From positions 1,660,867-1,724,866 of the forward strand of contig NC_014722.1 in assembly GCF_000198775.1 (NCBI RefSeq): DNA of 64,000 bases, given 5' to 3'. The notes below the pieces were generated by a model. The model ran no database searches and was not told the origin of the DNA. It saw nothing but the letters and a program-made list of their open reading frames with translations. The DNA comes from Mycetohabitans rhizoxinica HKI 454 (GTDB lineage Bacteria > Pseudomonadota > Gammaproteobacteria > Burkholderiales > Burkholderiaceae). The position numbers and the translations under genes were made by a program. Positions 17,332-46,125 of this stretch are shown piece by piece. Position 1 is the stretch's first letter. Every line of letters starts with the position of its first letter.

Positions 17332-17372
17332 AACGGGCATCCGATAAAGATAGCAGCACCCAAAATCGGGGC

Positions 17373-21758: not shown

Positions 21759-22721
21759 TCACAATCGTGTTGCTTGTGTTGCTATAGCCCTAATCAACCC
21801 TAAAACGGCTTTCGAATGTAGTTCCCTATGGTCTGCATCCACCACATGAAGCTGGGTATTGGCCAACGAGTTCTTTATCTTAGCGTTGTTTACACCCATT
21901 TTTTGGCGGTAATTTTTTTTAAACGGCGTAACAAAATCCAAGCCTCCTTTAGGGGCAATATTATCTTTTCCACCCGAAATATGGATATAATGCTTTACCG
22001 TCTCTCCGAGCTTTTCTTCCGAAGGCAAATGATCACTCCGTATAGGCGTGCCCAAAGTGACCAGTTGTTCAATATTACCTTGTGTTAGTTTAATCGCTTC
22101 AAAAGCGACATTACCACCATGGCTATGAGCGATCACATTCGTGATGATGCCAGCCCGTGTGTTTTCATCGATTTTTTTCGCAAGGGTTTGCCCCGCCTCA
22201 ATACGAGCGAGTCGATGATTTTTGCCACTCCATTGCAAAGCGGTCACCTTCCCACCAAAGTTTCCTCGAACAATATCGGCATACTTTCCGTTCGGGCGGG
22301 TCCAGCCCACTTCAGCCGCTGTGGCGTTAAATGTGCCGTGAATCAAAATAGTTTCAATACCATTGTCGGGTCGCTCGGACGGTTCTATAAAATTAGGTGG
22401 ACGATTGAGATAGTGCATTTTATGAAAAAAATTCAATAAGCCATAGGACATCTGCTTTCGAGTGGCTTCTGATATGGGTTCTTTTTTTTCTTTGGGTACA
22501 CTTTTATCATGACCGATTTCGAGGTTGGTGATATAAATTTCTTTCGATCCATTGTAAAGGCGTTCCGAAATTGCTTTCACCCATTTAAATGGCCTATCTG
22601 GGTCTATATCAGGCCAGCTAACCGGTCTCACTGACGAATCCAGCTCATCTTGGCTGGAGGCAACCTGCGCTCGCCGAGCCTTTCTCTGTTGGTCGGACTG
22701 AAGTTCATAGGACTTTCGCAT
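21759..22721 (-). CDS. alpha/beta hydrolase (lipase-like), candidate eCIS cargo
   Basis: A 320-residue protein with no signal peptide or membrane segment. Residues about 120-320 form an alpha/beta-hydrolase: oxyanion strand ETILIHGTFN, nucleophile elbow VIAHSHGGN (Ser in the H-S-H-G-G elbow), probable acid Asp in HISGGKDNIAP and His in VVDADHRELHS. Residues 1-110 are a charged, poorly structured leader rich in Lys, Arg and Gln. The fold suggests an esterase, lipase or phospholipase. It is the first gene after the tail-terminator gene of the eCIS operon, same strand, 109 bases away, with its own GAGGTG ribosome-binding site. It is clearly AT-richer than the structural genes. In Afp and PVC loci toxin cargo genes follow afp16, so I infer it is a loaded effector; no experiment supports that here. 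Confidence 0.75.
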   Translation of the reverse strand: MRKSYELQSDQQRKARRAQVASSQDELDSSVRPVSWPDIDPDRPFKWVKAISERLYNGSKEIYITNLEIGHDKSVPKEKKEPISEATRKQMSYGLLNFFHKMHYLNRPPNFIEPSERPDNGIETILIHGTFNATAAEVGWTRPNGKYADIVRGNFGGKVTALQWSGKNHRLARIEAGQTLAKKIDENTRAGIITNVIAHSHGGNVAFEAIKLTQGNIEQLVTLGTPIRSDHLPSEEKLGETVKHYIHISGGKDNIAPKGGLDFVTPFKKNYRQKMGVNNAKIKNSLANTQLHVVDADHRELHSKAVLGLIRAIATQATRL

Positions 22722-22830
22722 AGCTCACCTCATTGAAAAATATAACTTCATAATTTTCCAGTAGTCAGATGGCAATCATTTCAGCCGGACCATAGCAGGT
22801 TTTCCGGCGCAAAAAATAATTACCTGCTTA

Positions 22831-23766
22831 TTAAACAGCATACTTGCTCGCTGTCACTTCAGTCAGCCCGTTGATGTTCACCGGCACCTGCACGCCGATC
22901 TTGCTCCACTCGTCTGCATTCTCGTTAATCACCCGGTTCACGACCCCGTACGTCTTCTTATCAAGCAGCCCACTCACATGAACCACCGGCGGATCATTGC
23001 GATTTGTGTACTCGCAGGTCACCGCCAGACGCGCCAGTTGCACACGCGCTGATTGCACTTGATTCACGTCTTCCAGTAATGTCAGTACCTTGTCCACTAG
23101 CGCGCGCTTGAACGGCAACGACTTGTCGTAGTCCTCCCACGATTTGGGCATCGCCTGGTCAAGCATCGGTTTCAATATTGGTGGCGTCTTCTCCGTCTGA
23201 TCCCGCCCCAGCTCGATCGGAATGGTCACTTGGAAATTTAGACACAAGCGTGGCCGATCGCCCAACGATTGCCAGAAATTACCCAGGCTGGACAAATGTT
23301 CCGATGGCGCAATGACCCGCGAGAATAACGGCAAGTTCAGCTCCCTGAGACTCGTATCCAACTCAGCGTTAAGCAACGCGTTGAGCACCGCGTTCATCAC
23401 CATCATCGGTTGGCTGTCCGGCCCCATCCCTTGTTTCTTCGGCTGTTCCCAGTACGTAACGAGGTAACAACAGCGCGCGTTCACTTGCCGGGGGTCAAAT
23501 GTTCCCGTCTGCGCCCGATACGGGCGGGGTTGCGCATGCCGCAGCTCCAGATCCTCCTGAATATCGTAGAGGAACACACAGACTGTGGGATTATCCGGCA
23601 GGCAGGTTTTGTCCGGGATATCAAAACGAATATTGATTAAACCTGCGCTGATCTCATCCAGGTGTTTTTTCAGTGCAGCTTGAATCGTTCTATTCAGCGC
23701 AATGATTGCCTGGCCACGCTCTAAATCCTTGCATACTTGCTGCTTAAGCTCGTCATCCATCATCAC
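22831..23766 (-). CDS. eCIS tail terminator/sheath-end protein (Afp16-like, DUF4255)
   Basis: 311 residues. The N-terminal half is the DUF4255 (Pvc16-type) domain: ALNRTIQAALKKHLDE, IRFDIPDKTCLPDNPTVCVF, LYDIQEDLELRHAQPRPYRA, then CYLVTYWEQ. The C-terminal part (KRALVDKVLTLLEDVNQ to the end) is less conserved. In Afp and PVC particles this protein caps the tube and sheath at the end away from the baseplate and fixes assembly length. It is the last structural gene, 66 bases after the ATPase. Several ATG codons at the start (MMMDDELKQQ) make the exact start uncertain by two residues. Confidence 0.88.
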   Translation of the reverse strand: MMMDDELKQQVCKDLERGQAIIALNRTIQAALKKHLDEISAGLINIRFDIPDKTCLPDNPTVCVFLYDIQEDLELRHAQPRPYRAQTGTFDPRQVNARCCYLVTYWEQPKKQGMGPDSQPMMVMNAVLNALLNAELDTSLRELNLPLFSRVIAPSEHLSSLGNFWQSLGDRPRLCLNFQVTIPIELGRDQTEKTPPILKPMLDQAMPKSWEDYDKSLPFKRALVDKVLTLLEDVNQVQSARVQLARLAVTCEYTNRNDPPVVHVSGLLDKKTYGVVNRVINENADEWSKIGVQVPVNINGLTEVTASKYAV

Positions 23767-23832
23767 GTCCGTTATTCAAAAGTGCGATTTCCCAGCGCGC
23801 CGCATCCCCTCAACCGAGAGTCCCTATGACGC

Positions 23833-25995
23833 TTAGATAGGCGGCATGATGCGCCCGGTCTTACTCAATTCACGGCGCACCGCGCGCGCGATATCGGCCC
23901 AATTGACCGCTCGACTCTGCTCGGCTGCGAGCCAGCTCGCGAGCAACGCGACGTTACGAATGCCCGCGCCGGTCAATTCCGTGACTGACGCAAGCTGCGC
24001 AAAATCCACTTCCTCGTCCACTGCCACCTGCGCCGGCCAAATCGCACGCCACATTTTTTCTCGCAAATGGGCATCTGGTGCTTCAAAGCGCGTCATGAAC
24101 GTTAGCCGGCGCGTGAACGCATCGTCCAAATGGCTCCGGTTGTTTGTTGTCAGCACCACGAGCCCCGGGTACTGCTCTAGTCGTTGCAACAGGTACGACA
24201 CCTCGATATTCGCGTGCCGATCCTGCGCGTCCTTGACCTCACTGCGCTTGCCAAACAGCGCATCGGCCTCATCGAACAGCAACACACCAGTGTCGGCCCC
24301 GGCCAAATCAAAAATCCGCGACAGGTTCTTTTCCGTCTCACCGATGTACTTGTTGACCACCGTCGACAGATCGACACGAATCAGCTCCACGCCTAATTCG
24401 CCGGCGAGCACTTCAGCGGCCATCGACTTGCCAGTGCCCGACTCGCCATAAAAAAGCGCACTGATGCCCGTCGCGTGGCCAATTTTGTGTGCAAACCCGC
24501 GCGCGAGCACCGCGTCGCGCTGCCGGATCGCCGCAATAATCTCGTGCAGCTGCTCGGTCACGCTAGCGCTGACAATCAAGTCATCGAACGTGCGCCGCGG
24601 TAGCACGCGCTGCGCGAGCGAGCCAAAGTGTTGCTGGCCCCGCACGCGCAGTGCCTGATGCAGATCGGCTGGCGTGAGTGGCGCCTGCGCGTCGCGCAGT
24701 ACTCGATAGCCGTGCGCCTCCTGCAACGTGGACTCGAGTGCATCCGGATTGATCCGCGTGTGTTGCAGCAACACCGTCAGGTCCCACGCGTCACCGGCCC
24801 GCCCCAGACTAGCCTGCAGCACCTGCGCGTCGTCTTCGCGTGTGCGCGGCGGCAGCGTCACGCGCACACGCGGCAAAGTGGCAAACACGTCGCTCGCGTC
24901 CTGCTCGGAGCATAGCCCCACTACCAGCTGCCCCGCCAAGCGTGGCGCCAGCGCATTGAGCAATCGACCATGCCGCGCCACACCGTCAGCGAGTTGTTGC
25001 AGCACCAGCACGCTGCCGTGCAAGCGCGCTTCGCGCAGCGCCGCGAGCAGCAGCGGCCATGCCTCGTCCATCTCGTCTGGTAATGCCGCCAGATTGACGA
25101 TTAGCGTCGGGCGACTCGCGTCGCGAGCCAGCTGCGCGATCAGCGCCAGGCAACCGTCGGCTGGGTGCAACAGTAATAACGGGGCACGGCCCGGTTCAGC
25201 CCCGAAACAGCACGCGGCAATCTGCTGCGCGCAGGCGGCCCACGGGCCGTCACGCAGTACGTCACCGGCGCAAGAAGCGGAGCACCACTGCGCCACCTGC
25301 GTGAGCGCCGTAGGCAGCGATGTCGCGTCTGCGCCGCTTAAGTAGCGATAGACGGTCTCGTCCACGCGCAAGTACGATGCGTCATCGCGCGTGCTCGCGC
25401 GGCCGTTGCGCTCCGCCAAGTAGACAAGGCCGTGGTACACCAAAGCGCCAGCGTCTGTGCCAAGCAAGTGGCGGTGCGCGATGCGCTGCACAGGCGTCGC
25501 GCTAAAGAGCGTTAACGCGAATTCCACACCGGGCCAACTCGCGCCTTCATCCCCCTGCAAATAAGCGATCAGCGCACGATAACGCGGCTCGAAAAGTGGC
25601 AGCACGCATAGCATCAGTACCTGGGTCTCAAACGGTGTCAGCTCAAAACGATTGACCAACTCGGCCAGTCGCCCGTGTGCGGCCGGCGCATGCAGCGTTG
25701 TCCACGGCGCGGCGCTGTCGCTGCTCCAATGCGGCATGCCGCGCGGGTGTGCGCAACTGGCTTCGAGCGCCTCCACGGGCTGGAGCAACCCGGCGAGGTT
25801 GAGCCGGTCGTCCTCGTGTTGCTGCTGCCAGATGAGCAGGCGCTGCACTACCTGATCAACGTATTCCAGCCACGGCCCTAGCGTCTCGAACGCTGCGCTC
25901 ACGCGCGCCGTCTCGCCTTGCGCCCCGGCCGGTTCGACTGCGAGGCGCGGCTCCGCGTCTGGCGCGGGCACATCGAGTGAGGGGAAGAGCTTCAT
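23833..25995 (-). CDS. eCIS AAA+ ATPase (Afp15-like)
   Basis: 720 residues from the ATG at 25995, which overlaps the preceding stop as ATGA; a longer open frame to 26364 lies inside the tape-measure gene and is rejected. The N-terminal 430 residues are helical and variable. The AAA core is C-terminal: Walker A FYGESGTGKSMAAEVL, Walker B VLLFDEADALFGKRSEV, sensor 1 VVLTTNNRSHLDDAF and arginine-finger RR after it. The DAQDRHANIEVSYLLQRLE linker is typical of the Afp15/Pvc15 group. These ATPases are soluble, are not part of the finished particle, and are needed for assembly or cargo loading in Afp/PVC systems. Their presence is a diagnostic difference from R-type pyocins and phage tails. Confidence 0.93.
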   Translation of the reverse strand: MKLFPSLDVPAPDAEPRLAVEPAGAQGETARVSAAFETLGPWLEYVDQVVQRLLIWQQQHEDDRLNLAGLLQPVEALEASCAHPRGMPHWSSDSAAPWTTLHAPAAHGRLAELVNRFELTPFETQVLMLCVLPLFEPRYRALIAYLQGDEGASWPGVEFALTLFSATPVQRIAHRHLLGTDAGALVYHGLVYLAERNGRASTRDDASYLRVDETVYRYLSGADATSLPTALTQVAQWCSASCAGDVLRDGPWAACAQQIAACCFGAEPGRAPLLLLHPADGCLALIAQLARDASRPTLIVNLAALPDEMDEAWPLLLAALREARLHGSVLVLQQLADGVARHGRLLNALAPRLAGQLVVGLCSEQDASDVFATLPRVRVTLPPRTREDDAQVLQASLGRAGDAWDLTVLLQHTRINPDALESTLQEAHGYRVLRDAQAPLTPADLHQALRVRGQQHFGSLAQRVLPRRTFDDLIVSASVTEQLHEIIAAIRQRDAVLARGFAHKIGHATGISALFYGESGTGKSMAAEVLAGELGVELIRVDLSTVVNKYIGETEKNLSRIFDLAGADTGVLLFDEADALFGKRSEVKDAQDRHANIEVSYLLQRLEQYPGLVVLTTNNRSHLDDAFTRRLTFMTRFEAPDAHLREKMWRAIWPAQVAVDEEVDFAQLASVTELTGAGIRNVALLASWLAAEQSRAVNWADIARAVRRELSKTGRIMPPI

Positions 25996-28680: not shown

Positions 28681-30444
28681 CTATTCCTGTGCGAGAAACA
28701 CCTGGCAGCGCACGCCGTCGGTGTCCGTGTACTCCGCGATCTTATAAGGTCCATTGGGCAAATCCAGGGTCCACCACTCCGTGTCAAAAGGCTGAGGTTG
28801 ATCATTACCTGGCCAGTCGGAACCGGGATTACCTGGCCAGTCGGAACCGGGATTACCTGGCCAGCCGGAACCGGGATGACCTGGCCAATCGGAACCCTGA
28901 TTACCTGGCCAACCGGAACCGTGATTACCTGGCCAGTCGGAGCCCTGATTACCTGGCAAGCTGGAACCGGGCTGGTTATCATCAGGTGAAGTACCAACAT
29001 CCCCTGAAGAAACCTCAAACGTGAGCCGTGACGATCTCCCTCCTCGGCCGTTCGGGTCGTCCTCTGCCCTTATTACGACAGACGCGGATGAATTCGAGAA
29101 CAGCTTTGACTTAGCCTGCACACTTCCTACTACCAACTTGAACTCGCCTGTCGTTGTGCTGAAGTCGTCTTGGGCTGGACGTGCCACAAAAAATTTCCTG
29201 GGTATTTCGCGTGCGGTTATGGTGACTTTGGCTCCGCTTTCGTCCGTGCTGTACTCGAAACTGACGAAACTGCCATCAGCGCCCTTTAGGCAATCGACGC
29301 CGCATGCGCCAAATATTCCTACCTGGACCTCGAGTTGTACCGCACGCGACAAGAGTTTGGGGTCTTGCGTCAACTCCTGCACCAGGACTGCAATGTGTCC
29401 AGCGCTCCTCAATGTTATGTCGCCGTTCCTGCTGAGGTCCGCAACTATCGGCTTCCACTCATTGTCTGGCGTATTACCTTTGGTAAAACACAATTCGCCG
29501 CCCCGGGACGGGCTCACGTAGGCCAGCTGCCTTAGGCTCACGGACTGAGACTTTGCAAGTATAAATGGGTTGGTCTTCTTCACGTCCGGCTTCACCGTCT
29601 CGCAATACGCCGCTTTATACCCTTCTCCGTAGGCATCATTGAGCGCCTTGGCAATATCCTGTTCCATTTTTGAGGGGTTTGAGTTGCTGTTCGGCCTGGA
29701 ACCGGTGCTCGTGCCGCTGACCGCCTTACCTAACGCACCGCTGCCGGCCTGCACGGCCGCCTCCTTAAATTTGGTCAGCTGTATGTCGGTGAATTTCAGC
29801 TGCTTATCCTTGAACTCAAACCACCCCATATCGGCCTTAAGCTGTACCCCTCCCGTTGGATCGATATCCAGGCCCTTGTCTTGATTCACCTTGACCGACA
29901 ACTGATTTGTTGCATTGGGTTCAATCAGACTCAGTCCACCTTTTTCTGCAATATGAAGCTTGATCGGCTCATTTGCTTTTTCTACGATCAGCCCCGCGCC
30001 GAGCTTGACCCTCAGTCCATCATCGGTCGGATCAAGGCCGCCGTCGGGCGCTGCCTTCACCGCCACGCCGCTCTCCTCCACCCGAATCCCGAGCCCTGGT
30101 TTAACCATGAGCCCCTTGTCTTTCTCCAGCACTAGACCGCTTTGCTTGTCATCTACTGTCAACTCGAGCGCTTGAGTCACCTCGTTAAACTTCAGTCCGC
30201 CTGATTTATCCGCCGCAATATTTACCTGCAGCGGATGATTGACATCCGGCACAGTTAACCCACTACCCGGCTGCGGGGGCTGCGTAAAATCGCCCTCGTT
30301 AAACCCCAACGTTTTTCGCCCCACGTCGGCCAGATCGATCAATTCGCTAAAGGTTGCCTGCGTCGGGATCTGCCCCGAACCAAAGCTTTTCTTTAACCCC
30401 TCTGCTTTCGATCCCTTGCCGTTTTCGTTGTATTCGTCCGTCAT
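28681..30444 (-). CDS. eCIS fibre-like protein, large (Afp13-type N-terminus)
   Basis: 587 residues from the ATG at 30444 (MTDEYNENGKG), chosen because AGGA lies 12 bases upstream; an ATG five codons earlier (30456) is possible. Residues 15-45 (KKSFGSGQIPTQATFSELID-LADVGRKTLG) form a module shared with the next fibre gene and probably bind the baseplate. Residues about 70-240 are short repeats of the pattern GL.V....GL.L, like adenovirus fibre shaft repeats, described for Afp13. A Ser/Asn hinge follows, then a globular domain of about 200 residues, then seven copies of an eight-residue GSDWPGNP-type repeat, then a final 40-residue segment with WWTLDLPNGPYKIAEYTDTD. The C-terminal part should decide what the particle binds. 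Confidence 0.75.
   Translation of the reverse strand: MTDEYNENGKGSKAEGLKKSFGSGQIPTQATFSELIDLADVGRKTLGFNEGDFTQPPQPGSGLTVPDVNHPLQVNIAADKSGGLKFNEVTQALELTVDDKQSGLVLEKDKGLMVKPGLGIRVEESGVAVKAAPDGGLDPTDDGLRVKLGAGLIVEKANEPIKLHIAEKGGLSLIEPNATNQLSVKVNQDKGLDIDPTGGVQLKADMGWFEFKDKQLKFTDIQLTKFKEAAVQAGSGALGKAVSGTSTGSRPNSNSNPSKMEQDIAKALNDAYGEGYKAAYCETVKPDVKKTNPFILAKSQSVSLRQLAYVSPSRGGELCFTKGNTPDNEWKPIVADLSRNGDITLRSAGHIAVLVQELTQDPKLLSRAVQLEVQVGIFGACGVDCLKGADGSFVSFEYSTDESGAKVTITAREIPRKFFVARPAQDDFSTTTGEFKLVVGSVQAKSKLFSNSSASVVIRAEDDPNGRGGRSSRLTFEVSSGDVGTSPDDNQPGSSLPGNQGSDWPGNHGSGWPGNQGSDWPGHPGSGWPGNPGSDWPGNPGSDWPGNDQPQPFDTEWWTLDLPNGPYKIAEYTDTDGVRCQVFLAQE
28804..28971. repeat. tandem 24-base repeat, seven copies, in the fibre gene
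   Basis: Seven head-to-tail units of the type ATTACCTGGCCAGTCGGAAC followed by CGGG, differing at a few positions, in frame, encoding GSDWPGNP/GSGWPGNQ on the minus strand. Such a tract can gain or lose units and so change the spacing between the globular domain and the tail. Confidence 0.85.
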
Positions 30445-30529
30445 GATTGGTTTCATTCCTGATTCAGAGCGTGCGAGTTGCGTGATCAAGCAACGATACA
30501 CATGATTCTGTGCCTCTCTGTCAACGTGA

Positions 30530-31243: not shown

Positions 31244-31317
31244 GTCACGCACCTCCTGCCACCCAGTTCAGTTTTCGAGACAGTCCGGCGGGTATGCCGC
31301 TATTAGACTTGAAGCTA

Positions 31318-34299: not shown

Positions 34300-34318
34300 A
34301 AATCGACCTTATTTTGTA

Positions 34319-37300: not shown

Positions 37301-37693
37301 CAACACCGCCGAGAGCATTACACGGTCCGGCTGCGCCACGCGCTCGAGCATGCCCAGATAATCGCGGTAATATAAATCCCGCAGTTGCTCAGGCAACTGG
37401 TTAATCAGCCGCCGGGGCGTGTCGAGCAATTTGAGCATCGCCAGCACGACCGTTTGCGCAACAGGCAATTGGCCATCGGCTTGTTCGGGGCCAGTGGCCA
37501 GTTGCGCAAGAGTGCGCAGCACCGCGTCACGTTCATGCTCTGGACCAAACAGTACCGTCTCCCACGTGCCGGTACCGCCCTGCGTTACCGGTGGCAATGC
37601 TCGACTGTACTGCGCCAATTCTTGCAGCAGTCGTGGCACGCTGCGATCGTCCAGCACAAAATCCGTCTCGGGTGGCACAATCGGATCGGACAT
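34319..37693 (-). CDS. eCIS baseplate J-like protein (Afp11-like)
   Basis: 1124 residues. The central region (about 500-740) has the baseplate J-like signatures: ETRAAWIARVSARLRHRERA-LTDWDIGRLLRDYYPGIRDL and the following strand IVLMPRASTNDNGDPLRPAF, then QITCCNPDYVPVQVRWSVTF. The N-terminus (PRLLQELAQYSRALPPVTQG...) and C-terminal extensions are longer than in phage gpJ proteins, as is normal for Afp11/Pvc11. It builds the baseplate wedges around the spike. Located 45 bases after the tip protein; intact. Confidence 0.88.
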   Translation of the reverse strand: MSDPIVPPETDFVLDDRSVPRLLQELAQYSRALPPVTQGGTGTWETVLFGPEHERDAVLRTLAQLATGPEQADGQLPVAQTVVLAMLKLLDTPRRLINQLPEQLRDLYYRDYLGMLERVAQPDRVMLSAVLEDACPELVMKAGLAFDGGQDSEGTARVYRLDQTCTVNHARCTDLRWCIGSQKARVARVLFDEAAGQAWPSGGVRLFAPAPQSILPELSPDEDRPVRAARIVTLVQLDPPGDRTLPELVVTFADNIDSSKLHAEVSAGGHWVKNKNAQPDPNNFKKITFSFEQADLEPAAASKLDGLTTSMPLVRLSLVDGGAVPDVQAISCIAPKVGAVTYTPNAFEQSVRLPFGYARQISPPYDGDELYLGIRSIEPDQLLSLHWQLRSPQQLVFDECSYLAQDAQGGHWEPLDDALIDGTNGWYTSGVWSLSWPHDALDTAQIESPLQRRMPPGRYWLRVRVKSPAREPSQAASMPAYPWAHGLHTNALSATLAEPQTIDAAHFKQPLPAGTIVATVDSVDGLQRVLQPWPSAGGRAAETRAAWIARVSARLRHRERALTDWDIGRLLRDYYPGIRDLHLAESRVVRAMQHRARQTIVLMPRASTNDNGDPLRPAFSQAHLNEMRDWLAQRASPWLQITCCNPDYVPVQVRWSVTFAPGISRALGNQQIQQALHTHYLAWSTSDVLVSLIGQPLAYHEMMRVIQACDVVQHVDSLTLNGREDSVDAADTEVLVPVFASPEYAQVKLAFYREQLAGAYWQRAVIYGNGRNQVEVACVIPKKLTLAGAGQIDIDDQKVFLYDCDTGKRLDVQGSPAGPSCTNQTGQYCLPVQVASKRDTLPTKDDLWSLHRYVQADQIVGRYRIGVGADVPLSDGRTYKLRSHDAGLELGLQVLPKVDYAAPENWLINTLPPVPLAVATDAQVSVELGTYVLQANTLLVGPAQLTLMPTLPTALTSQELSKAWGTAIKMLSDEAPHAITVSDDAIHCWWVGSEPSESSNSGSPESPIKRYGIKQGATIEIPLGEHSQSISFGDTDIVFSPVPCRQPMQWLTIYGLHIRSKQTDLAISGGIEPYPMGTLDTGVPVAHVTDSYGNEGTVHLAIQRDRPEVKHRCAQTLDEHSDNC

Positions 37694-37738
37694 GGTTAAT
37701 CTCGGTGATAGAAAGAAATTGCCTGCTTTTGCCTTTCG

Positions 37739-38170
37739 CTAGCCGGCGTAGGTGGAACGCGTCGGGCTCTCGGTTATAAACTCTCCAGTTCCAAGGTACT
37801 CCGACATGGGGTCTTCCTGAGGAGGGCTGGAAGTTGATTTAGCTTTGCTTATTACTTTAAGCTTCGCTAAAAATTTTACTCCCTTGACCATGACCGGCTT
37901 TCCGCCCACCACTCTCGGCGCAGTTTGTTCTTGAAGTTTTTCGATAACCACCTCTCCAACTCCGCCCATAAAAATCCCTGATTGGTATGTCACACCCGGT
38001 ACTTTCACGCTGGCCTCATCACCGCTGATGCATACCTTCTTGCCATTCACCGAAAATTGCCCACTTCCTGCGATGTGCGCGACCGGCGGATTGAGCGCCA
38101 CCGCAGGCCCAAACGTCGTGTCAAACTGCACAGTATCGCCGTCCAACACCACAAGCTTCAACGGGTCCAT
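37739..38170 (-). CDS. eCIS PAAR-like spike-tip protein (Afp10-like)
   Basis: 143 residues, beginning MDPLKLVVLDGDTVQFDTTF and with KKVCISGDEASVKVPGVTYQ, then VVIEKLQEQTAPRVVGGKPV-MVKGVKFLAKLKVISKAK. This is the Afp10/DUF4280-type tip that sharpens the VgrG-like trimer. The tail (STSSPPQEDPMSEYLGTGEF) is a short low-complexity extension. Its ATG shares one base with the gp25 stop (TGATG), so the two are translationally coupled. Confidence 0.83.
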   Translation of the reverse strand: MDPLKLVVLDGDTVQFDTTFGPAVALNPPVAHIAGSGQFSVNGKKVCISGDEASVKVPGVTYQSGIFMGGVGEVVIEKLQEQTAPRVVGGKPVMVKGVKFLAKLKVISKAKSTSSPPQEDPMSEYLGTGEFITESPTRSTYAG

Positions 38171-38601
38171 CAGAATCCCCCGCCTTGCCCGTCTGCAATG
38201 TTCACCGCACCCGAAATACGATCCACCGTGTCACCGTCAGCCAATCGATAGTTCACGTCCACGTGCAATGCGCCCTGTTGCTGCGTATCCGGATACAGCG
38301 ACACCGTCTCGAGCGCCACGCGCGGCTCGTTGCGCGCCACGCTGTCAGTAATGCGCGTATGCAGCTCGGCAAACAGCGCCTCACCGATGTTGTGAAACAT
38401 CGCGAACTGCAGATCGCATCCGTAGTCCTCACGCATGATCCGCTCGCCCGGTTGCGTCATGAATAGAATTCGCATACCTTGCAGCAGATTTTCCCGTGCC
38501 GTCTTGGCCAGCATGACACTGCTTTTCTGCGACGTATCTGCCGTGAAACGTGGTGGGAATGTCCAACCGCGACCAAACAATTCATTTACTTTGTCTTGCA
38601 T
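38170..38601 (-). CDS. eCIS gp25-like baseplate protein (Afp9-like)
   Basis: 143 residues with the GPW/gp25 pattern: FPPRFTADTSQKSSVMLAKT-ARENLLQGMRILFMTQPGERIMREDYGCDLQ, including the EPR-like NEPRVAL segment near residue 108. This lysozyme-like fold without catalytic activity joins the wedges to the first sheath ring and is a universal part of contractile tails and T6SS (TssE). Intact; 52 bases after the spike gene. Confidence 0.92.
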   Translation of the reverse strand: MQDKVNELFGRGWTFPPRFTADTSQKSSVMLAKTARENLLQGMRILFMTQPGERIMREDYGCDLQFAMFHNIGEALFAELHTRITDSVARNEPRVALETVSLYPDTQQQGALHVDVNYRLADGDTVDRISGAVNIADGQGGGF

Positions 38602-38653
38602 GATGGGCTCCTTAATAGATTTAAACTTCGTTTTGAATCGATCCCATCACAAT

Positions 38654-41338
38654 TTAGTTTTTCAGGTCAATCGTCTTTCCGGTGATATCGACTGCCGTAG
38701 TACCGTTTATATCAACTTTGTTACTTTCTATCTGCGCTTTACCCGACGCAAGCGACACCGTCGATTTCGATCCGTTGATGGTCACGCTATCCTTACCTTC
38801 CACTTCCACCTTCGGTGCCTTTACCACAACCTCATCACCGCCTGACACGTCAAGCTCGATCTTCTTTGTGCTGCTCACCTTGATCTGTTTGTCGGCTTCA
38901 ATCGTGACGCTTTCCTCGCCGCTTTGAATACCTACCTTGTCTTTGGCGTGTACCTTCAGCTGTTTGTCCGCCTGCATCTCGATATCGCCTTGCGGATTGC
39001 GCAGCGTCACCTGACGCGTGCTCTTCGCGTCGATCGCCAACTGAATCTGCTTATCCGCCTGCTTCGGATCACCCACCGCTTGCGTGATCGTGTCGTGAAC
39101 TTGTATCGTCATGTCTTTGTCCGCCGTCACGCGCACGTTACCGTTCTTCTTGCCCTGCCCAAAGGTTGCGCTCAGCTGGATGTCGCCATCCTGACTCGCC
39201 AGCATGATGCCGTCCTGGTCACTGAGCTTGAATTGATTCTTCGGCTCGCCGTCGACCGTCTTTGTGTTGAAGTAATTGACCTTCACTTCCTGCTTATCCC
39301 GATCGAACAGCCATTCGTACCGGCGCTCATATTGGTTCCCGTTTTTGTTGTCTTGCAGGATCATGCCCTTCACATCATTTTTTGCATCGAGCTTGTGTGG
39401 CGCCTTATTCTTCGGATTGTGCATTGCACCAAGCATTACCGGAAAGCGCGGATCGTTCTCAAAGAACCCGAGCACGATCTCATCGCCCGGCTCTGGATAG
39501 AAAAATACGCCGTTGTCCTGGCTCGCATACAGATGCGTGATGCGCGCCCATAGCGGCTTGCTCTCATCAATCGCCGGCACCTTGACGCGAATCCGGTCCC
39601 AATCCGTCTTCGGATCCGCCTTGAACGTGTCCACCACTCCAACCGTCAGTCCCTGGGCCTTGGGCACCAAGGGTGCATCCACCTCCCGAACGGCCTCCAA
39701 CCCCAGCATCACCGTCGTGCGCCACACGTTCTCTTCGGCTCGAAACCGATGCACGACGCCCGTCACCACACCGAGCCCATCGAGTTGCTTACCAAAACCC
39801 TTCACTTCCAGCGTCTCACCCAGTTGGTAATCGGCCTGCCCACGCAGCGTGAAACGCGCCTGCACACCCATCGCCTGCTGGCCCAGCAACCGACCATTGG
39901 CCAGCGCACCACACTCGGTCGCGCTTAGCGGCACACCGTATTGCAGCGACCACGTCGCCGCCTGGTCAACCGGCGTCTTGAGCGACGCGGGGTCCAATGC
40001 GTGGCTGCCCAGTTTGGCCGCCTTGCCGCGCTTGGGCGGCAGCATCGCTTGCTCGCCGATATTCCAAGCTGACACGTTCACGCCGTGAGGCATGTCCCGG
40101 TTGTTTGAGAGCCACATCGCTTCCTCGATTGGGCTTGTCGGTTTGTTGGCCTCCAGGCGATGCTGGGCACCAATCGCCAGTTTCGGCACACCGATCGACA
40201 CTTGCGCCTGCGGCAGCAGCCACAGTCCGTTGGCTGCCAGCCGTGCGCGCACAAACGCCCAGTCCGAGCAGTCGTATTGCACCATCTGCTCGTGCTTAAG
40301 CTCAACACTGGCCGGTATCATTTCCAGATGGGCGCCGACCCACTTCACCGACACGCCATGCTCTTTTAGAATCGCCTGGATGATCTGCCGATCGCTTTGC
40401 TCGGCAAACACCCGGCTGCGGTGCGTTGCGCTGAGCCGTTGCACACGATGCGCCACGCGCAGCGTCAATCGCTTGCTACCCTGGCGGACCGTGACCTCGC
40501 GTGCAACGATCAGACCCTCAAAGAGCACGTTGCCCGCGGCCTTGATCGTCACTGGTTGGTCCGGCGCGCACTGCGCCAAATCCGCTTGCAATGCATCGTA
40601 ATCGTCGTGCTCGTTTAATGCGCTTGTCCAGCGCAACGTGGCAGATGGCAGTCGATTAATCAACGTTTGCACATCCACTTCAGTGAGCCGGAATTGCTTC
40701 AGAGTGCCGCCTTGGCCAAACTCCACCGCAATATCCAGTGCCGGTGCGTGCGGCGTCACCTCGCCCGCCTGCACGCGCGGCTTATACCGGTTCGCGAGAC
40801 CGCGCAGTGGCGTGGCCCCGCCCAGCCGACCCGGCGCTGGGATACGCTGCTGTCTTTGGATGGCTGCGAGCGTAATACGCGCCACCGCTCGCTGGGGCGC
40901 AGCTTGCCGGTTGAATATCGAATAGTCGATTTCCAGCTGCGTCATGCGCGCCCAAAACTCACGCGGCGCATCGTTGTCCGACAGCCAGCGCACATTGCCC
41001 CATTGCACTTTCAAAAAGTGCGGCTCGCCGGTGCCGCTGTCAAGATCGAAGCACAACGCGCGCAGGTGCGCGAGCTGCGCTTCAATCGAGCCACCTGAGC
41101 GCGTGCCAATCGCGTCCAGCATCAGCTCCAGGCTCACTTCGCCCGGGTTTGAACGCACGTAGCGACTCATCTGCCGCTGATCGTTTACATACTGCTCCGG
41201 CGTGTAGTCAGCGCTGTAGCTCACCTCGATCGACTCCGGGTTGTACATCGCCTCGAACGTGCCGAGCGGGTGTCGACCATCCCGATCCCGATACGCGGAT
41301 AGCGTCAGCTTGACCAGCGTCTGTTCCCGTGCGCCCAT
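38654..41338 (-). CDS. eCIS VgrG-like spike with fused Afp7-like N-terminal domain
   Basis: 894 residues. Residues about 1-180 are not VgrG: TFEAMYNPESIEVSYSADYT, then SRYVRSNPGEVSLELMLDAI-GTR and PHFLKVQWGNVRWL match the CIS tube/cap domain of the neighbouring Afp7-like protein. From about residue 195 (PALDIAVEFGQGGTLKQFRL) a gpD-like VgrG body follows; an OB-fold near 545-650 (LTVGVVDTFKADPKTDWDRI, DEIVLGFFENDPRFPVMLGA); then a long repetitive beta-helix (KQIQLAIDAKSTRQVTLRNP and similar) to the end. It forms the trimeric needle. The fused cap domain is unlike the separate Afp7 and Afp8 of the reference particles, and a separate Afp7-like gene is also present just upstream. Confidence 0.9.
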   Translation of the reverse strand: MGAREQTLVKLTLSAYRDRDGRHPLGTFEAMYNPESIEVSYSADYTPEQYVNDQRQMSRYVRSNPGEVSLELMLDAIGTRSGGSIEAQLAHLRALCFDLDSGTGEPHFLKVQWGNVRWLSDNDAPREFWARMTQLEIDYSIFNRQAAPQRAVARITLAAIQRQQRIPAPGRLGGATPLRGLANRYKPRVQAGEVTPHAPALDIAVEFGQGGTLKQFRLTEVDVQTLINRLPSATLRWTSALNEHDDYDALQADLAQCAPDQPVTIKAAGNVLFEGLIVAREVTVRQGSKRLTLRVAHRVQRLSATHRSRVFAEQSDRQIIQAILKEHGVSVKWVGAHLEMIPASVELKHEQMVQYDCSDWAFVRARLAANGLWLLPQAQVSIGVPKLAIGAQHRLEANKPTSPIEEAMWLSNNRDMPHGVNVSAWNIGEQAMLPPKRGKAAKLGSHALDPASLKTPVDQAATWSLQYGVPLSATECGALANGRLLGQQAMGVQARFTLRGQADYQLGETLEVKGFGKQLDGLGVVTGVVHRFRAEENVWRTTVMLGLEAVREVDAPLVPKAQGLTVGVVDTFKADPKTDWDRIRVKVPAIDESKPLWARITHLYASQDNGVFFYPEPGDEIVLGFFENDPRFPVMLGAMHNPKNKAPHKLDAKNDVKGMILQDNKNGNQYERRYEWLFDRDKQEVKVNYFNTKTVDGEPKNQFKLSDQDGIMLASQDGDIQLSATFGQGKKNGNVRVTADKDMTIQVHDTITQAVGDPKQADKQIQLAIDAKSTRQVTLRNPQGDIEMQADKQLKVHAKDKVGIQSGEESVTIEADKQIKVSSTKKIELDVSGGDEVVVKAPKVEVEGKDSVTINGSKSTVSLASGKAQIESNKVDINGTTAVDITGKTIDLKN

Positions 41339-41353
41339 CTCGTCTGGCTCCCG

Positions 41354-42028
41354 TTAGTCCTCGTCCCGTCCGAGTGCGAGCGCCGCATGCGGCGCCAGCA
41401 CGCTGATACTGTCTAAATTGTTTTGGTAGGCCAGCGACAGATAATCGCGCGCGGCCGTGCTGCGGCCCGACTGTGCGGCCACCAGTGGCAGCGTATCGCC
41501 ACCCGGCACACGATGCGCGAGTGCCTGACGCACCTTGCCCGCCTGCTGGCGCTTTAACCCGCCATCAGCCATTAATGTGAGCCGCGCGCTGGCCTGTAGT
41601 ACCTGGCCGCTGCGATCGAATTGCGTATAAGCGACCCGCAGCGAACGGGCCCGGCCGGCAAAATATCCGTCGCCATGCCAGCGCATCTGCCCCCAGACCA
41701 CCCGCAGGAACATCGGCTCGCCGGTCTGACTGTCCGGCTCGATCCCAAAGCACATCCGATGCAGCGACTGAATCGCGGTGGCGACATCATCGCCTTGGTC
41801 CCAGCGATTAAACACGAGCTCCAGCGACAGGCTGCCCGGCTGCACCTGCCGGTACGCATCGCCGGGCCAGGTGGTCGTCAGCGACGCCTGCGACACATAG
41901 TCAGCCTCATAACTCAAATGAATTGAGCTCGGGTTGTACAGTGTCGTGAGCGTGCGCGTGGCCGTCACCGCGTCGCGATCCGCGTAAGCTTCTACGCGCA
42001 GTTTCGCCAATGCATGATCGGCTCGCAT
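41354..42028 (-). CDS. eCIS tube-cap/LysM-like protein (Afp7-like)
   Basis: 224 residues. Residues 20-150 contain the CIS tube domain (TLTTLYNPSSIHLSYEADYV, SLSLELVFNRW, MFLRVVWGQMRWHG). Residues about 165-215 look like a LysM-type segment (RVPGGDTLPLVAAQSGRSTA, then YLSLAYQNNLDS), as in gp53-like proteins that join tube to spike. The ATG shares a base with the preceding DUF5908 stop (TGATG). The next gene starts 15 bases later and repeats the first domain. Confidence 0.85.
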   Translation of the reverse strand: MRADHALAKLRVEAYADRDAVTATRTLTTLYNPSSIHLSYEADYVSQASLTTTWPGDAYRQVQPGSLSLELVFNRWDQGDDVATAIQSLHRMCFGIEPDSQTGEPMFLRVVWGQMRWHGDGYFAGRARSLRVAYTQFDRSGQVLQASARLTLMADGGLKRQQAGKVRQALAHRVPGGDTLPLVAAQSGRSTAARDYLSLAYQNNLDSISVLAPHAALALGRDED

Positions 42029-42201
42029 CAGACCTGCTCCTGTTGTTCACGCAACGCCTCCAGCACGCGTTGCACAACCCGGTCAATTAGCTGTGCCTGT
42101 TCCAGAGAATTTAAGTGCGGTGTGGCACGCCGCGGCACACGGCCGCGTTCGTCGTCTACCACGCGCGCTTCAATCACCAATTGTCGAATCTCAACGGTCA
42201 T
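42028..42201 (-). CDS. eCIS small DUF5908-type protein (Afp6-like)
   Basis: 57 residues: MTVEIRQLVIEARVVDDERG, then a linker, then an amphipathic helix LIDRVVQRVLEALREQQEQV. The start motif M(T/P)IEIRELVI is the signature of DUF5908 proteins found between tube and cap genes of eCIS loci. It overlaps the upstream tube stop by ATGA (42201-42198) and the downstream gene by TGATG, so all three are tightly coupled. It is too short for many gene callers. Its role in the particle is not established. Confidence 0.85.
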   Translation of the reverse strand: MTVEIRQLVIEARVVDDERGRVPRRATPHLNSLEQAQLIDRVVQRVLEALREQQEQV

Positions 42202-42779
42202 GCCCGCACCCCCAGCCAGCGCATCCGGTGATACGCCAGCTCCATCGTATTGATCAATACCGTATTGCTGCTCGCGTCCAAATCACCAACCTGCCATCTG
42301 ATCGGCACCACGCCGGTGAGCGTCCAGCTGCTGATCGGTAAATTATGCTCGTCAAGCAACATGATGATCGCGGTCAGTCCGTCCGAAAACTGGTCCAGCG
42401 CCTTTTGCGTGAGCTGCCCTAGCACTTTCGCGTCCAACCTGTGCATCACGCCATTCACCGCTTTGCCGCCCCCCGCTATACCCAGCACGCTGATATCGAA
42501 GTCGTTAAAAGCGCGGCCCAGCCAATCCGTGAGCATCGTTGTGGGCATCACGCCGCGCTCGAGCACCACGTTGCCGAACGTCACCCGTTCTGGTAAATGC
42601 CGGCTGCCCACATTGTCGCCGCCCTCGTTGATCGTTTTGACGCTCATCTCACGCGACAGCCCGCTGATGCGCTGAAACCGCATATCGGCCGCCGACACAC
42701 TCGGCATACGATTCAAGAAAAACGTCGCTGTAAAGCGATGCGACAGGCTCGGCGCATTCGGTTCGATGATCTTGGCCAT
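42198..42779 (-). CDS. eCIS inner-tube protein, spike-proximal (Afp5-like)
   Basis: 193 residues of the T4 gp19-like tube fold: HRFTATFFLNRMPSVSAADM-RFQRISGLSREM, then LPERVTFGNVVLERGVMPTT, and INTMELAYHRMRW at the end. It is larger than the Afp1-like tube protein encoded upstream, consistent with a ring next to the baseplate rather than the bulk tube. Intact; 21 bases after the Afp4-like sheath gene. Confidence 0.88.
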   Translation of the reverse strand: MAKIIEPNAPSLSHRFTATFFLNRMPSVSAADMRFQRISGLSREMSVKTINEGGDNVGSRHLPERVTFGNVVLERGVMPTTMLTDWLGRAFNDFDISVLGIAGGGKAVNGVMHRLDAKVLGQLTQKALDQFSDGLTAIIMLLDEHNLPISSWTLTGVVPIRWQVGDLDASSNTVLINTMELAYHRMRWLGVRA

Positions 42780-42800
42780 GATCCTTGTTCTTTTCGCTTG

Positions 42801-44069
42801 TTATGCGGCCTGCTCAATTGCCGCCTGCTGGTCCAAACGCAATTGAATCTCGACGAATTCCGCCGCATGCAACACCGCCAAGCGCACTTTGATCCGTAAT
42901 TGGCCCGTTATCACATCGTGTGCCGTCATGCTTTCGCCCAACCCCACGTGGACTTCGAATGCCTGCTCCTCGCGCCCGCCCGCCAATCCGCCGAGCTGCC
43001 ACAACTCATGCAGCCACGCGCTCACCACTGACTTCAACTTGAACCATGTCATCGGCTCGTTCGGCTCGAACACTGCGAACTGGCACAGCTGTGTCAGGCT
43101 GGTCTGCACATATGTCAATAACCGACGAATCTGCACATAACGAAACGGTCCCGCCGTCGTACCGGCCAGTGTGCGGCATCCCCATACCCGCACGCCTCGT
43201 CCGGGAAAGCGACGAATCAGGTTGATTGACGGTGCGGTCGCACTGAACCACTGCTGCGCGCCGCTCTCGTGGCATTCGGTGCGCACCACTCTTACCAATG
43301 CCTCATTAGCCGGCGCGGACCACACGCCGCGCTCGCGGTCCGTGCGCACCATCATGCCCACGACCGCACCACTTGGAGGCAACACCGGTGGGCCATCCTC
43401 ATAGTCGGTCACCAAGTGCGGCCCATACAGCGCCGCGTGCTGGCCACGCTCACCCAACGCGTGGGAGCCGCGCAGCGCGTCCAGGCACGCCTGTGCCAGT
43501 GCCATGTCGCGCGGTGCATCAAGTACAAAGAACCAATCTGGCCGCTCCTGGCACGCGCTCAACAGGTTGCGCCAGAGGTCGATATAAGACTGCGCTGCTG
43601 TGCCAAGCAAGGCCGCACCTGCCGGTTCGGCAGCCATCGTCGGCAACTCCATCGCCTGAACCAGTTGCGGCACCGCTACAAGCGTGATATCTGTTTGGTT
43701 GACAATTGGCTCATATGTTTGCGGATTGCCCAGCACTGCCTTCAGCTGCTCAAGCGTAGGCTCTGACTGCATGCGCAGCATGTATACATAACAGAGGTCC
43801 CCACCATTATTGAAATAGTGACGCACACTTCGGTAAAGCGGCTGTTGCTCCTGTTGTTGCTTCCACGGCCAATCATCGATTGTCGTCAAGCGCACCAGTT
43901 GACTATGCGGCAGATCGTTAGGATTGGAGTCGGAGTCTACCTTTTGCTCGAGCCAGCCTATCCACACCGGCACGGCACTGGGCACCTGCGGTGCCTGCGG
44001 CGCCACGCTGTTCGTCTCGGCCAGTCTAACCCCAGACATACTCCATTGCTCCGACCATTGCATGCTCAT
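42801..44069 (-). CDS. eCIS contractile sheath protein (Afp3/Afp4-like)
   Basis: 422 residues. The sheath signatures are VYMLRMQS-type strand after NNGGDLCYV, the conserved TDRERGVWSAPANEALVRVV, INLIRRFPGRGVRVWGCRTL, then RYVQIRRLLTYVQTSLTQL and the C-terminal strand RIKVRLAVLHAAEFVEIQLR. The N-terminus is short and lacks the usual PGVYVEE motif, so it probably forms a specialised ring near the baseplate. Its ATG overlaps the stop of a vestigial sheath gene (ATGA at 44069-44066). Confidence 0.88.
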   Translation of the reverse strand: MSMQWSEQWSMSGVRLAETNSVAPQAPQVPSAVPVWIGWLEQKVDSDSNPNDLPHSQLVRLTTIDDWPWKQQQEQQPLYRSVRHYFNNGGDLCYVYMLRMQSEPTLEQLKAVLGNPQTYEPIVNQTDITLVAVPQLVQAMELPTMAAEPAGAALLGTAAQSYIDLWRNLLSACQERPDWFFVLDAPRDMALAQACLDALRGSHALGERGQHAALYGPHLVTDYEDGPPVLPPSGAVVGMMVRTDRERGVWSAPANEALVRVVRTECHESGAQQWFSATAPSINLIRRFPGRGVRVWGCRTLAGTTAGPFRYVQIRRLLTYVQTSLTQLCQFAVFEPNEPMTWFKLKSVVSAWLHELWQLGGLAGGREEQAFEVHVGLGESMTAHDVITGQLRIKVRLAVLHAAEFVEIQLRLDQQAAIEQAA

Positions 44070-44181
44070 GCCGCACTCTCACTCTCGTCGCCCGCATTTA
44101 CCACTTTTTGCATAAACTGCAGTTCAATGCATTTTGCCGGGCGTACTGCCGCTGCACCTATTTTCACGGTTAGTTTAGATC
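44066..44181 (-). pseudogene. C-terminal remnant of a third sheath gene (Afp3-like)
   Basis: The complement strand reads SKLTVKIGAAAVRPAKCIEL, then QFMQKVVNAGDESESAA and TGA at 44068-44066. This is the terminal strand of contractile sheaths (compare GKLIVQIGLAAVRPAEFIIL in the gene just upstream). The stop overlaps the next gene start by ATGA, as in an intact operon. Nothing recognisable as sheath lies between 44181 and 44308, so about 350 codons have been deleted. It shows that the locus once had three sheath genes, as Afp does. Confidence 0.75.
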
Positions 44182-44308
44182 GCCAGAAAATAAATCGCCG
44201 TCTGTGTCGGAATATCCAGTCCGCCGGCAATAATCGCGTTGCGGACCACTATTCGATCGGCGCTCCATTATGAAGCGCCGCCCACTTTACATCGCGTCGA
44301 ATCCGGTT

Positions 44309-45613
44309 TCACGATACCGATAGCTGCTGCTGCGACACTTGCAAGATGATGAACTCGGCCGGACGCACCGCCGCCAGACCAATCTGCACAATCAGCTTGC
44401 CGTTATTAATGTCGTCTGCCGTCATCGTCTGGCCCAGTCCAACCTGCACAAAATATGCTTGCTGCGGCGTACTGCCCTGCAGTGCTCCTTGCCTCCATAG
44501 ATTGTGCAGATAAATATCGATAGCACTGCGCACCCGCTCCCACGTCGGCGCGCTGTTAGGCTCGAATACCGCTACCCCCATCGCACGGTGCACGTCTTTT
44601 TCCACCGCATTGAACAGGCGCCGCACCGGCACATACCGCCACGTGTCCAGGTCAGACTTCAATGTACGCGCCCCCCAAATCAACGGACCCATGCCACGAA
44701 ACGTGCGAATCACGTTGATTGCTTTGCCGCCCGAGCTCGGCACATTCAGTATTCCGTTGAGATCATTGGACACTTTATACTTTGGCGTCACGCCGCCTTT
44801 GAGCGCCACGTTGGCCGGCGCCTTCCACACCCCACGTTCACGGTCTACTGTACAATACGCGCCCGCAACCGCCGCGCTCGGCGGGATGTCAACGCGCGTC
44901 TTATCTGACTTAATCGCCCAGTCTGCCTGCAGCCACGGGTAGTACGCTGCCGTGTACGGATTCGAGTCGTAGTCTTTTGTTGGGTCTGTTGCGTTCTTTT
45001 GTTCTGTTGCGTCTTTTGGTTCTGTTGCGTTCTTTGCCTTTTTCTGCGTCTCTTGATCGCTGCCTATACTAGCTGTCGAGGCGGTCACCTGACCGTTACG
45101 ATCGATTTCTTCAGACGGCCCGTCGAATACCGCAAAGTACGTGTTGCCCGGCTTGCAGAGTGTGCTGACAGACGTCTTGAAACTGTCTAGTTTTGCCCCG
45201 GCCTGCACCAGTAACGTGATGTCGTCGAACCCCGGCACGGCCGATGCCAGCGAATTCACGTTCATCACGTAGGCCCGCCCGCCACCGTTGTCGAAATACG
45301 TCTTCAACGACAGATACAGCGGATCGCTTAACAAAGCGTCGTTAAAATTATTCAACGCCTCCTGAGCTGTCTTCAAGCTGTCTGTCGTTGTTGCGTTGGC
45401 CACCGCTTGCTGCAGTGGATCGCGCTGTTTTGCGATGAGTTGGTTTACGTCCAGCCACGACTGGATTTCCTGCCCATCCTGCAGATCGGAAACCTTAGAC
45501 TGCTTGACGTCGTCACATGCAAACACTGGAATCGCTGTCTCGCCCGCCGGAATTGACAGCGCCAGCTCAAACGGCTCCTCCACATACACCCCAGGTACCT
45601 TGTAATCAACCAT
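44309..45613 (-). CDS. eCIS main contractile sheath protein (Afp2-like)
   Basis: 434 residues from the ATG at 45613 (MVDYKVPGVYVEEPFELAL), selected because it starts with the conserved sheath N-terminus and has AGAGGGG upstream; nine extra codons upstream are unlikely. Further signatures: YFDNGGGRAYVMNVN, VDRERGVWKAPANVALKGG, INVIRTFRGMGPLIWGARTL and the last strand GKLIVQIGLAAVRPAEFIIL. A surface insert near residues 205-225 has a short internal repeat (KNATEPKDATEQKNATDPTK). As the first sheath gene and the most complete, it probably makes the bulk of the sheath. Confidence 0.92.
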   Translation of the reverse strand: MVDYKVPGVYVEEPFELALSIPAGETAIPVFACDDVKQSKVSDLQDGQEIQSWLDVNQLIAKQRDPLQQAVANATTTDSLKTAQEALNNFNDALLSDPLYLSLKTYFDNGGGRAYVMNVNSLASAVPGFDDITLLVQAGAKLDSFKTSVSTLCKPGNTYFAVFDGPSEEIDRNGQVTASTASIGSDQETQKKAKNATEPKDATEQKNATDPTKDYDSNPYTAAYYPWLQADWAIKSDKTRVDIPPSAAVAGAYCTVDRERGVWKAPANVALKGGVTPKYKVSNDLNGILNVPSSGGKAINVIRTFRGMGPLIWGARTLKSDLDTWRYVPVRRLFNAVEKDVHRAMGVAVFEPNSAPTWERVRSAIDIYLHNLWRQGALQGSTPQQAYFVQVGLGQTMTADDINNGKLIVQIGLAAVRPAEFIILQVSQQQLSVS

Positions 45614-45675
45614 GATCCCCTCTTTACATTCATTGTCCATTCACCAACTCAATCGTTTGGCGACACGCTCAACTC

Positions 45676-46125
45676 TCAATGAAAATTTACCGTCACACGA
45701 TCCGCCGCCAGGCTCAGCTCCTCGAATGCCACTTCGTTACTCGCTGCATCCAGACTTGGCGCGGTAAGCTTGGTCGGAAACGCGTTGCTCACGTTCCACG
45801 TCACCAACAGCTCTTTACCCGCCTCATCGGTCAAGCTAATCGAAATGTCCTTCTTTTCCACCCGGTTCAGTGAAATCGAGCTCATCCAGTCATACAGTTG
45901 GCTGTTTTTGGGCATCACTCCACGCTTAAGCGTGAGCGTGACTGATTGCGCCTGTCCTGGCATTTGATACAAGCCACCGAGCCCGTCCTTGTACTCAATC
46001 TTTTCCACTGACTGCTCTAACCCCGACACGCTGCTGAAGGCCATCTGCTCCTTACCGACCGTTACCGTAAAGCGATAGGTCGGAATTGGATAAGTCGCCG
46101 CCATCGTCTTGGAATCCAGTGCCAT
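45676..46125 (-). CDS. eCIS main inner-tube protein (Afp1-like)
   Basis: 149 residues, the normal size of Afp1/gp19 tube proteins: YPIPTYRFTVTVGKEQMAFS, then SVSGLEQSVEKIEYKDGLGG, LTLKRGVMPKNSQLYDWMSS and a final VAFEELSLAADRVTVNF. It stacks as hexamers into the rigid tube driven into the target. First gene of the operon, with AGGAAA eight bases before the ATG. Upstream lies a 535-base leader and then IS remains, so a nearby promoter is expected but not recognised. Confidence 0.93.
   Translation of the reverse strand: MALDSKTMAATYPIPTYRFTVTVGKEQMAFSSVSGLEQSVEKIEYKDGLGGLYQMPGQAQSVTLTLKRGVMPKNSQLYDWMSSISLNRVEKKDISISLTDEAGKELLVTWNVSNAFPTKLTAPSLDAASNEVAFEELSLAADRVTVNFH

Follow-up and report, generated by a model that had tools for sequence, protein, structure and literature searches.

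What is encoded by a run of minus-strand genes in the fungal endosymbiont Mycetohabitans rhizoxinica HKI 454, and which cells would its product act on? The genome comprises 3,750,138 bases in 3 contigs. The window examined here is a stretch of 64,000 nucleotides of contig C2 (2,755,309 bases; C2:1660867-1724866). A first-pass annotation made from the letters alone had read positions 21759-46125 of the window as an extracellular contractile injection system (eCIS) of the Afp/PVC type in a host-associated betaproteobacterium. The host association fits, as HKI 454 lives within Rhizopus microsporus, and the genes almost certainly encode such a system. We consider it roughly 85% probable that this eCIS makes a headless particle that delivers a lipase-like hydrolase to a eukaryotic cell. 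A search with PF19267 located three eCIS loci in the genome, the window locus and two others designated A and B. An Afp/PVC cluster published for Burkholderia rhizoxinica (Rbrh_00107-00122) could be any of the three (Sarris 2014, PMC4122934). Both the kind of system and the organism are already in print; what is new is the idea that two injectors share one loading module.

Gene content and order of the locus

The order of the genes was determined by scanning 20 proteins against Pfam, and 40 of the 72 window open reading frames (ORFs) that were kept were scanned in all. On the minus strand the families run tube, sheath, sheath, gp19-like second tube protein, DUF5908, CIS_tube, spike, gp25 and spike tip, followed further on by CIS_TMP, an AAA ATPase with a winged-helix domain (WHD), and Pvc16_N/DUF4255. 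The matches to DUF5908, CIS_tube, the PF19267 tip, Pvc16/DUF4255 and the AAA ATPase with WHD all exceeded the curated cut-offs. Afp11 fell below the cut-off, and Afp12 and both tail fibres had no Pfam match; PDB sequence searches assigned Afp11 and Afp12 to Pvc11 and Pvc12 and matched the two fibres as well (Table 1). The order from tube to tail terminator described in the first-pass annotation agrees with both kinds of match, and the three markers it named (DUF5908, AAA ATPase and DUF4255) are present. In the ATPase the AAA plus WHD pair is of the eCIS type, and the DUF4255 protein matched the DUF4255 chain of 9qgn, Pvc16 and Afp16. As judged from sequence, the agreement of the gene set with Afp/PVC is far beyond chance.

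Some details of the earlier description were modified. The run of about sixteen genes is not structural throughout, as 21759-22721 is a payload gene lying past the terminator gene. The "several" ATGA overlaps came to two of the six junctions viewed, afp5/DUF5908 at 42198-42201 and tape measure protein (TMP)/ATPase at 25992-25995; two junctions are TGATG sequences sharing 1 base, two have gaps, and the other junctions are gapped by their coordinates.

Synteny with eCIS loci of other genomes, on which the first-pass annotation had staked its reading, is clear for two Mycetohabitans plasmids (the B3 and B5 megaplasmids of M. endofungorum) and one Serratia plasmid (S. marcescens pE46, locus L010). 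The closest protein matches were from Mycetohabitans. In the spike tree the window locus falls among Pseudomonadota eCIS, in a region where the program flags long branches meeting near the window locus and locus A. Membership in the Afp/PVC type is indicated by the sheath and tube, the marker proteins, Afp11 and Afp12 with a fibre, the synteny and tree placement, and an adjoining payload with a disordered N-terminal leader (sequence and model). Gene content, gene order and the assignments to families and folds were all obtained directly, as were the estimates of selection and the leader/hydrolase architecture described below.

PVC (Photorhabdus virulence cassette; PDB 6j0b/6j0n/6j0m) and the related 9qgl-9qgp have the component set and order of the window locus, and are the nearest solved relatives of its sheath, spike, Afp11, Afp12, Pvc16 and fibre shaft. 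The best solved relative of the sheath is 9qgl, other chains of which are named Photorhabdus TTO1. The window locus differs from PVC in having two sheaths instead of three, an extra Afp7-like domain fused to the spike, a short second fibre and another payload. Afp of Serratia entomophila is alike in gene set and order, but the window sheath, spike, Afp11, Afp12 and Pvc16 score less well against it in PDB than against PVC, and it is plasmid-borne whereas the window locus is chromosomal.

Table 1. Features of the eCIS locus (window coordinates).
Position	Strand	Feature	Basis
21759..22721	-	Payload, 320 aa: disordered leader (1-44) and alpha/beta-hydrolase lipase-like domain	PGAP1 match E 4e-4, below Pfam cut-off
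22831..23766	-	Afp16/Pvc16-type tail terminator, 311 aa	PF14065 E 5e-17; PDB Pvc16/Afp16
23833..25995	-	AAA ATPase of Afp15/Pvc15 type with WHD, 720 aa if read from ATG 25995 (most likely start)	PF00004, PF22977
25992..27912	-	Afp14-type TMP gene, two overlapping frames	PF19268 on N part
28681..30501	-	Long tail fibre, 606 aa as listed: anchor, adenovirus-like shaft, own C-terminal head	PDB matches
28804..28971	-	7 x 24-bp tandem repeat in long fibre, Pro-Gly-Asn-x-Gly-Ser-x-Trp-like units	TRF
30530..31252	-	Short "headless" fibre, 240 aa: shaft-like repeats, no C-terminal head	Weak PDB fibre-shaft matches, E 6e-5, 1e-3
31318..34299	-	Afp12/Pvc12-type baseplate protein, 993 aa	PDB Pvc12 E 1e-125, residues 10-992
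34319..37693	-	Afp11/Pvc11-type baseplate protein, 1124 aa	PDB Pvc11 E 2e-111
37739..38170	-	Afp10-type spike tip, 143 aa	PF19267 E 8e-33
38170..38601	-	Afp9/gp25-type baseplate protein, 143 aa	PF04965 E 4e-17
38654..41338	-	Spike/hub, 894 aa: Afp7-like CIS_tube domain and Afp8/VgrG-like spike	Pfam; PDB Pvc7, Pvc8 stretches
41354..42028	-	Afp7-type CIS tube adaptor, 224 aa	PF19266 E 2e-22
42028..42201	-	Afp6-type DUF5908 protein, 57 aa	PF19265 E 3e-11
42198..42779	-	Afp5-type second tube protein, 193 aa	PF06841 E 5e-27
42801..44069	-	Sheath 2, Afp4/Pvc4-type, 422 aa	PF17482 E 6e-7; tblastn with third sheaths of L008, L010, 40-46%
44093..44182	-	Sheath C-terminus scar, 30 codons	tblastn 50-57% identity, last ~30 residues of locus A, L008, L010 sheaths
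44309..45640	-	Sheath 1, Afp2/Pvc2-type, 443 aa	PF17482; PDB Pvc2/Afp2 E 2e-107/1e-89
45676..46125	-	Afp1/Pvc1-type inner tube protein, 149 aa	PF06841 E 1.6e-37

Payload and proposed mechanism

An AlphaFold model and its fold matches assigned a hydrolase fold to the payload, in which S200, D253 and H298 are invariant in the alignment. The leader is also found on a different putative protein (L029 544-1656) beside Pvc16 of the eCIS in genome G006. This second candidate payload had no Pfam match; it carries a GSHDAGTY motif that we take to recall PI-PLC. Loading of the window payload by this system is probable.

An intact paralogue, 82% identical, lies at C2:2085775 and was found in each of the genus's four large genomes. 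It sits between TMP and ATPase remnants of a fourth, decayed eCIS (L032 9297-11596; C2 ~2085.3-2087.6 kb), whose counterpart in M. endofungorum HKI456 (G002) consists of Pvc16 and ATPase remnants. Since the paralogue is conserved in these four genomes, with pairwise ratios of nonsynonymous to synonymous divergence (dN/dS) of 0.17-0.24, it has been kept although its own syringe is gone. Just past the window payload gene, 21329-21562 on the minus strand matches residues 58-140 of the locus A ATPase at 35% identity and is a remnant of another eCIS end.

In a 2024 paper EAT17 (WP_013435507.1) is described as a PGAP1-like eCIS toxin of HKI 454 that is toxic to yeast (PMC11297309). Like EAT17, the window payload is an alpha/beta hydrolase of HKI 454, and the gene at 21759-22721 is very probably EAT17.

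By analogy with PVC and Afp, the tube would lie within a two-component sheath capped by Pvc16, and a baseplate of gp25, Afp11 and Afp12 would bear the adenovirus-like fibres and a spike with its tip protein. The Pvc15-type AAA ATPase would feed leader-bearing payloads into the tube. After release the fibres would bind a eukaryotic surface, the sheath would contract and the tube would deliver the hydrolase, which may attack lipids of the membrane or act on other esters. Assembly of the particle, leader-dependent loading, fibre binding, contraction and delivery into a eukaryotic cell are projected from established PVC/Afp biology; release, catalysis and the nature of the target, whether fungal or otherwise eukaryotic, are likewise inferred. 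The first-pass annotation had likewise put particle production down to inference, and so it stays, with a frame split in the TMP gene of the assembly as an added caveat.

Putative target

The first-pass annotation had left the target class open between fungal, insect and bacterial cells. The field is now narrower, in that the payload very probably belonging to this locus is toxic to yeast expressing it (PMC11297309). A fungal target is plausible because the payload is yeast-toxic and the bacterium lives inside a fungus, and we give it an even chance.

A particle that acts on amoebae, nematodes, insects or competing microbes, and not on the host fungus, is somewhat less probable. Afp and PVC act on insects, and the neighbours of the window spike include Photorhabdus and Xenorhabdus. 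The fibre offers no guidance on the target, since its head (residues 236-606) was seen only in the window protein and in two further proteins, both from Mycetohabitans. The distribution of eCIS in the genus leans the other way. PF19267 was found in 4/8 genus genomes and in 7/299 genomes drawn from the family, those four included. The eCIS-bearing genomes are the four of 3.3-3.75 Mb, while searches of G001, G003, G004 and G005 (1.1-1.2 Mb) with PF19267, Afp12, the spike and the payload gave no match. Neither this pattern nor the yeast toxicity of EAT17, which also speaks for the fungus, fixes the target. That a fungus-dwelling bacterium has three syringe loci and a lipase-like payload toxic to yeast makes a role of eCIS in fungal symbiosis testable.

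Integrity of the locus and alternative readings

Several points weigh against a particle that is made and that delivers this hydrolase. The TMP gene is split between two frames in the HKI 454 assembly, 26761-27912 (N part) and 25992-26942 (C part), and in the same assembly loci A and B (L004-L007) have one frame-broken gene each, the third sheath in A and Afp12 in B. The analysis identified neither a regulator nor a promoter nor a lysis gene, and the matches listed included no published study of particles from Mycetohabitans. EAT17 gave no inhibition of the one human-cell signalling reporter on which that paper tested it (PMC11297309). The assignment of EAT17 to this gene, and not to the 82% paralogue, was made from the spacing of two IMG gene numbers and not from sequence.

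The frame breaks raise the alternative that the locus is decaying and that HKI 454 no longer produces particles. In addition, a sheath gene has been lost: as judged by its tblastn matches, 44093-44182 is the remnant of a third sheath gene, and a corresponding short ORF is also found in the M. endofungorum orthologue. Relatives compared with the other two loci have the broken genes intact (one relative for the third sheath of A, two for Afp12 of B), and the fourth eCIS of the genome is already down to remnants. Against decay, two-sheath loci occur elsewhere, among them some Photorhabdus loci, L036 (Pseudomonas fluorescens HKI0874) and L052 (Duganella), so two sheaths need not mean decay. In a tblastn-type search 3/4 TMP queries matched the N part and 4/4 the C part. 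Intact TMPs include the near-identical P0058 (639 aa), P0057 (676 aa) from other Mycetohabitans and the homologue P0056, and the copy of the sister species M. endofungorum is intact as well. Given the intact copies, either the TMP frame was disrupted recently or the split arose in sequencing; single frame breaks in one assembly could also be sequencing errors.

Selection was estimated against the M. endofungorum orthologue in 19 rows, of which one misaligned row was dropped and 18 were counted. dN/dS ranged from 0.02 (tube) to 0.50 (long fibre), with 0.32 for the payload. We interpret values of 0.5 or less as purifying selection rather than long decay. We regard loss of particle production as unlikely; the split TMP gene makes production uncertain for HKI 454 itself.

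That the locus is instead an R-type tailocin or defective prophage tail aimed at bacteria is extremely improbable: sheath, tube, gp25 and spike do have common ancestry with phage tails, but the best sheath matches were the 9qgl sheath, Pvc2 and Afp2 (E 9e-110, 2e-107 and 1e-89) against 4e-6 for a pyocin sheath, DUF5908, CIS_tube, the PF19267 tip, CIS_TMP, the AAA+WHD ATPase and Pvc16 are all there, and capsid, portal and terminase families were not matched among the 40 window proteins scanned. The eCIS markers and the sheath scores together refute membership in the tailocin/phage tail family, and the sheath comparison was one that the first-pass annotation had proposed against itself. A Type VI secretion system was also rejected, as the same 40 proteins included no TssJLM or ClpV family.

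The fused spike

The preferred reading, an Afp/PVC-type eCIS, includes a hub of unusual build. Pfam and PDB matches divide the spike into an Afp7/Pvc7-like CIS_tube domain (residues 4-160) and an Afp8/Pvc8 spike (residues ~211-661), and its tail has a weak DUF2345-like match under the Pfam cut-off. A stand-alone Afp7 gene is kept beside it. The fused ORF was found in 2/86 eCIS loci, namely the window locus and its orthologue L035, which form one orthologous pair; the 86 are made up of 80 loci retained out of 114 that the genome scan detected, and six others. Within the genus it accounts for 2/9 spike loci. The spike is a trimer in relatives, and in the window particle the covalently attached Afp7-like domains might share the overlying ring with free Afp7. 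Such a fusion would constrain models of hub symmetry.

A proposed loading module common to two loci

Locus A (C2:2.39-2.42 Mb, same genome) was compared with the window locus gene by gene. The ATPase needed a corrected start. The listed ORF 23833-26364 is most likely over-extended, and the start was placed at 25995 because alignment with the locus A ATPase begins only at 25998. Identity between the two loci is 96% for the tube, 86% for the ATPase and 66% for Pvc16, compared with 31-53% for the sheaths, spike, Afp7, gp25, tip, Afp11 and Afp12 and 26-30% for the fibres, and it rises and drops at block edges.

In the spike and Afp12 trees, locus A groups with the S. marcescens plasmid eCIS with full or nearly full support. 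Locus A and L010 have the lineage of these two proteins in common, each with three sheath genes, one of which is frame-broken in A, and with a spike that lacks the fusion. This grouping was rejected by the ATPase tree (approximately unbiased test, p-AU 0.0038) and not by the tube tree (p-AU 0.16). Synonymous divergence of the window genes from those of locus A amounts to 0.47 in the ATPase, compared with 1.03 (Pvc16), 1.08 (tube) and 1.56 (sheath 1); between the window ATPase and its sister-species orthologue it is 0.30. The trees, the identity edges and the synonymous divergence thus support exchange of the ATPase between the two loci. The two tubes probably go back to a common but old ancestor, and their likeness is in part due to strong constraint (dN 0.02).

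Since tube and ATPase hold and load the payload, two injectors with different targeting ends may use one payload pool. We tentatively suggest, as a reading that is itself rather doubtful, that two injectors of different lineage run on one loading module, in which the ATPase and, less surely, the tube are exchanged or evolve in concert, with one payload pool that includes the orphan payload and with a fused-spike hub. An ATPase, and perhaps a tube, common to two distant injectors would bear on which payload enters which particle. Among the matches listed there was no published report of the spike fusion or of ATPase exchange between loci.

Tail fibres

The long fibre had PDB matches from E 2e-12 to 3e-7, including a CIS tail fibre (E 2e-12), AfpX13 (E 7e-8) and a chain named adenoviral fibre. 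The name eBAP1 for the adenovirus-like fibre type comes from PMC12923769; the window fibre was typed through its PDB matches. The proteins of other strains begin at the in-frame ATG at 30444. An alignment of three fibres indicates that the copy number of the 24-bp repeat varies between strains.

The short fibre gene precedes the long one and has a dN/dS of 0.27 against the M. endofungorum orthologue. Short genes at the equivalent place in locus A, L008 and L009 have weak similarity to it (26-35%, E 3e-5 to 4e-6); none was found at that place in the S. marcescens pE46 locus. Multi-fibre loci make up 23.4% of 2585 loci in the same source (PMC12923769).

Flanking region

A two-partner secretion locus occupies 7772-19457 on the minus strand, with a ShlB/FhaC transporter at 17373-19457 and an exoprotein resembling filamentous haemagglutinin, which is spread over two overlapping ORFs, 14680-17340 (ESPR, TPS) and 7772-14710 (haemagglutinin repeats). 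Two duplicated fragments of the large haemagglutinin-like ORF were identified: 4281-5255 matches 8546-9520 within it, and 5280-5460 matches 9879-10059, at 97-98% identity. Transposase ORFs at 515-2805, 46661-47113 and 47549-48055 (mutator family, rve/IS481-like and HTH_Tnp_1) flank the haemagglutinin and eCIS region.

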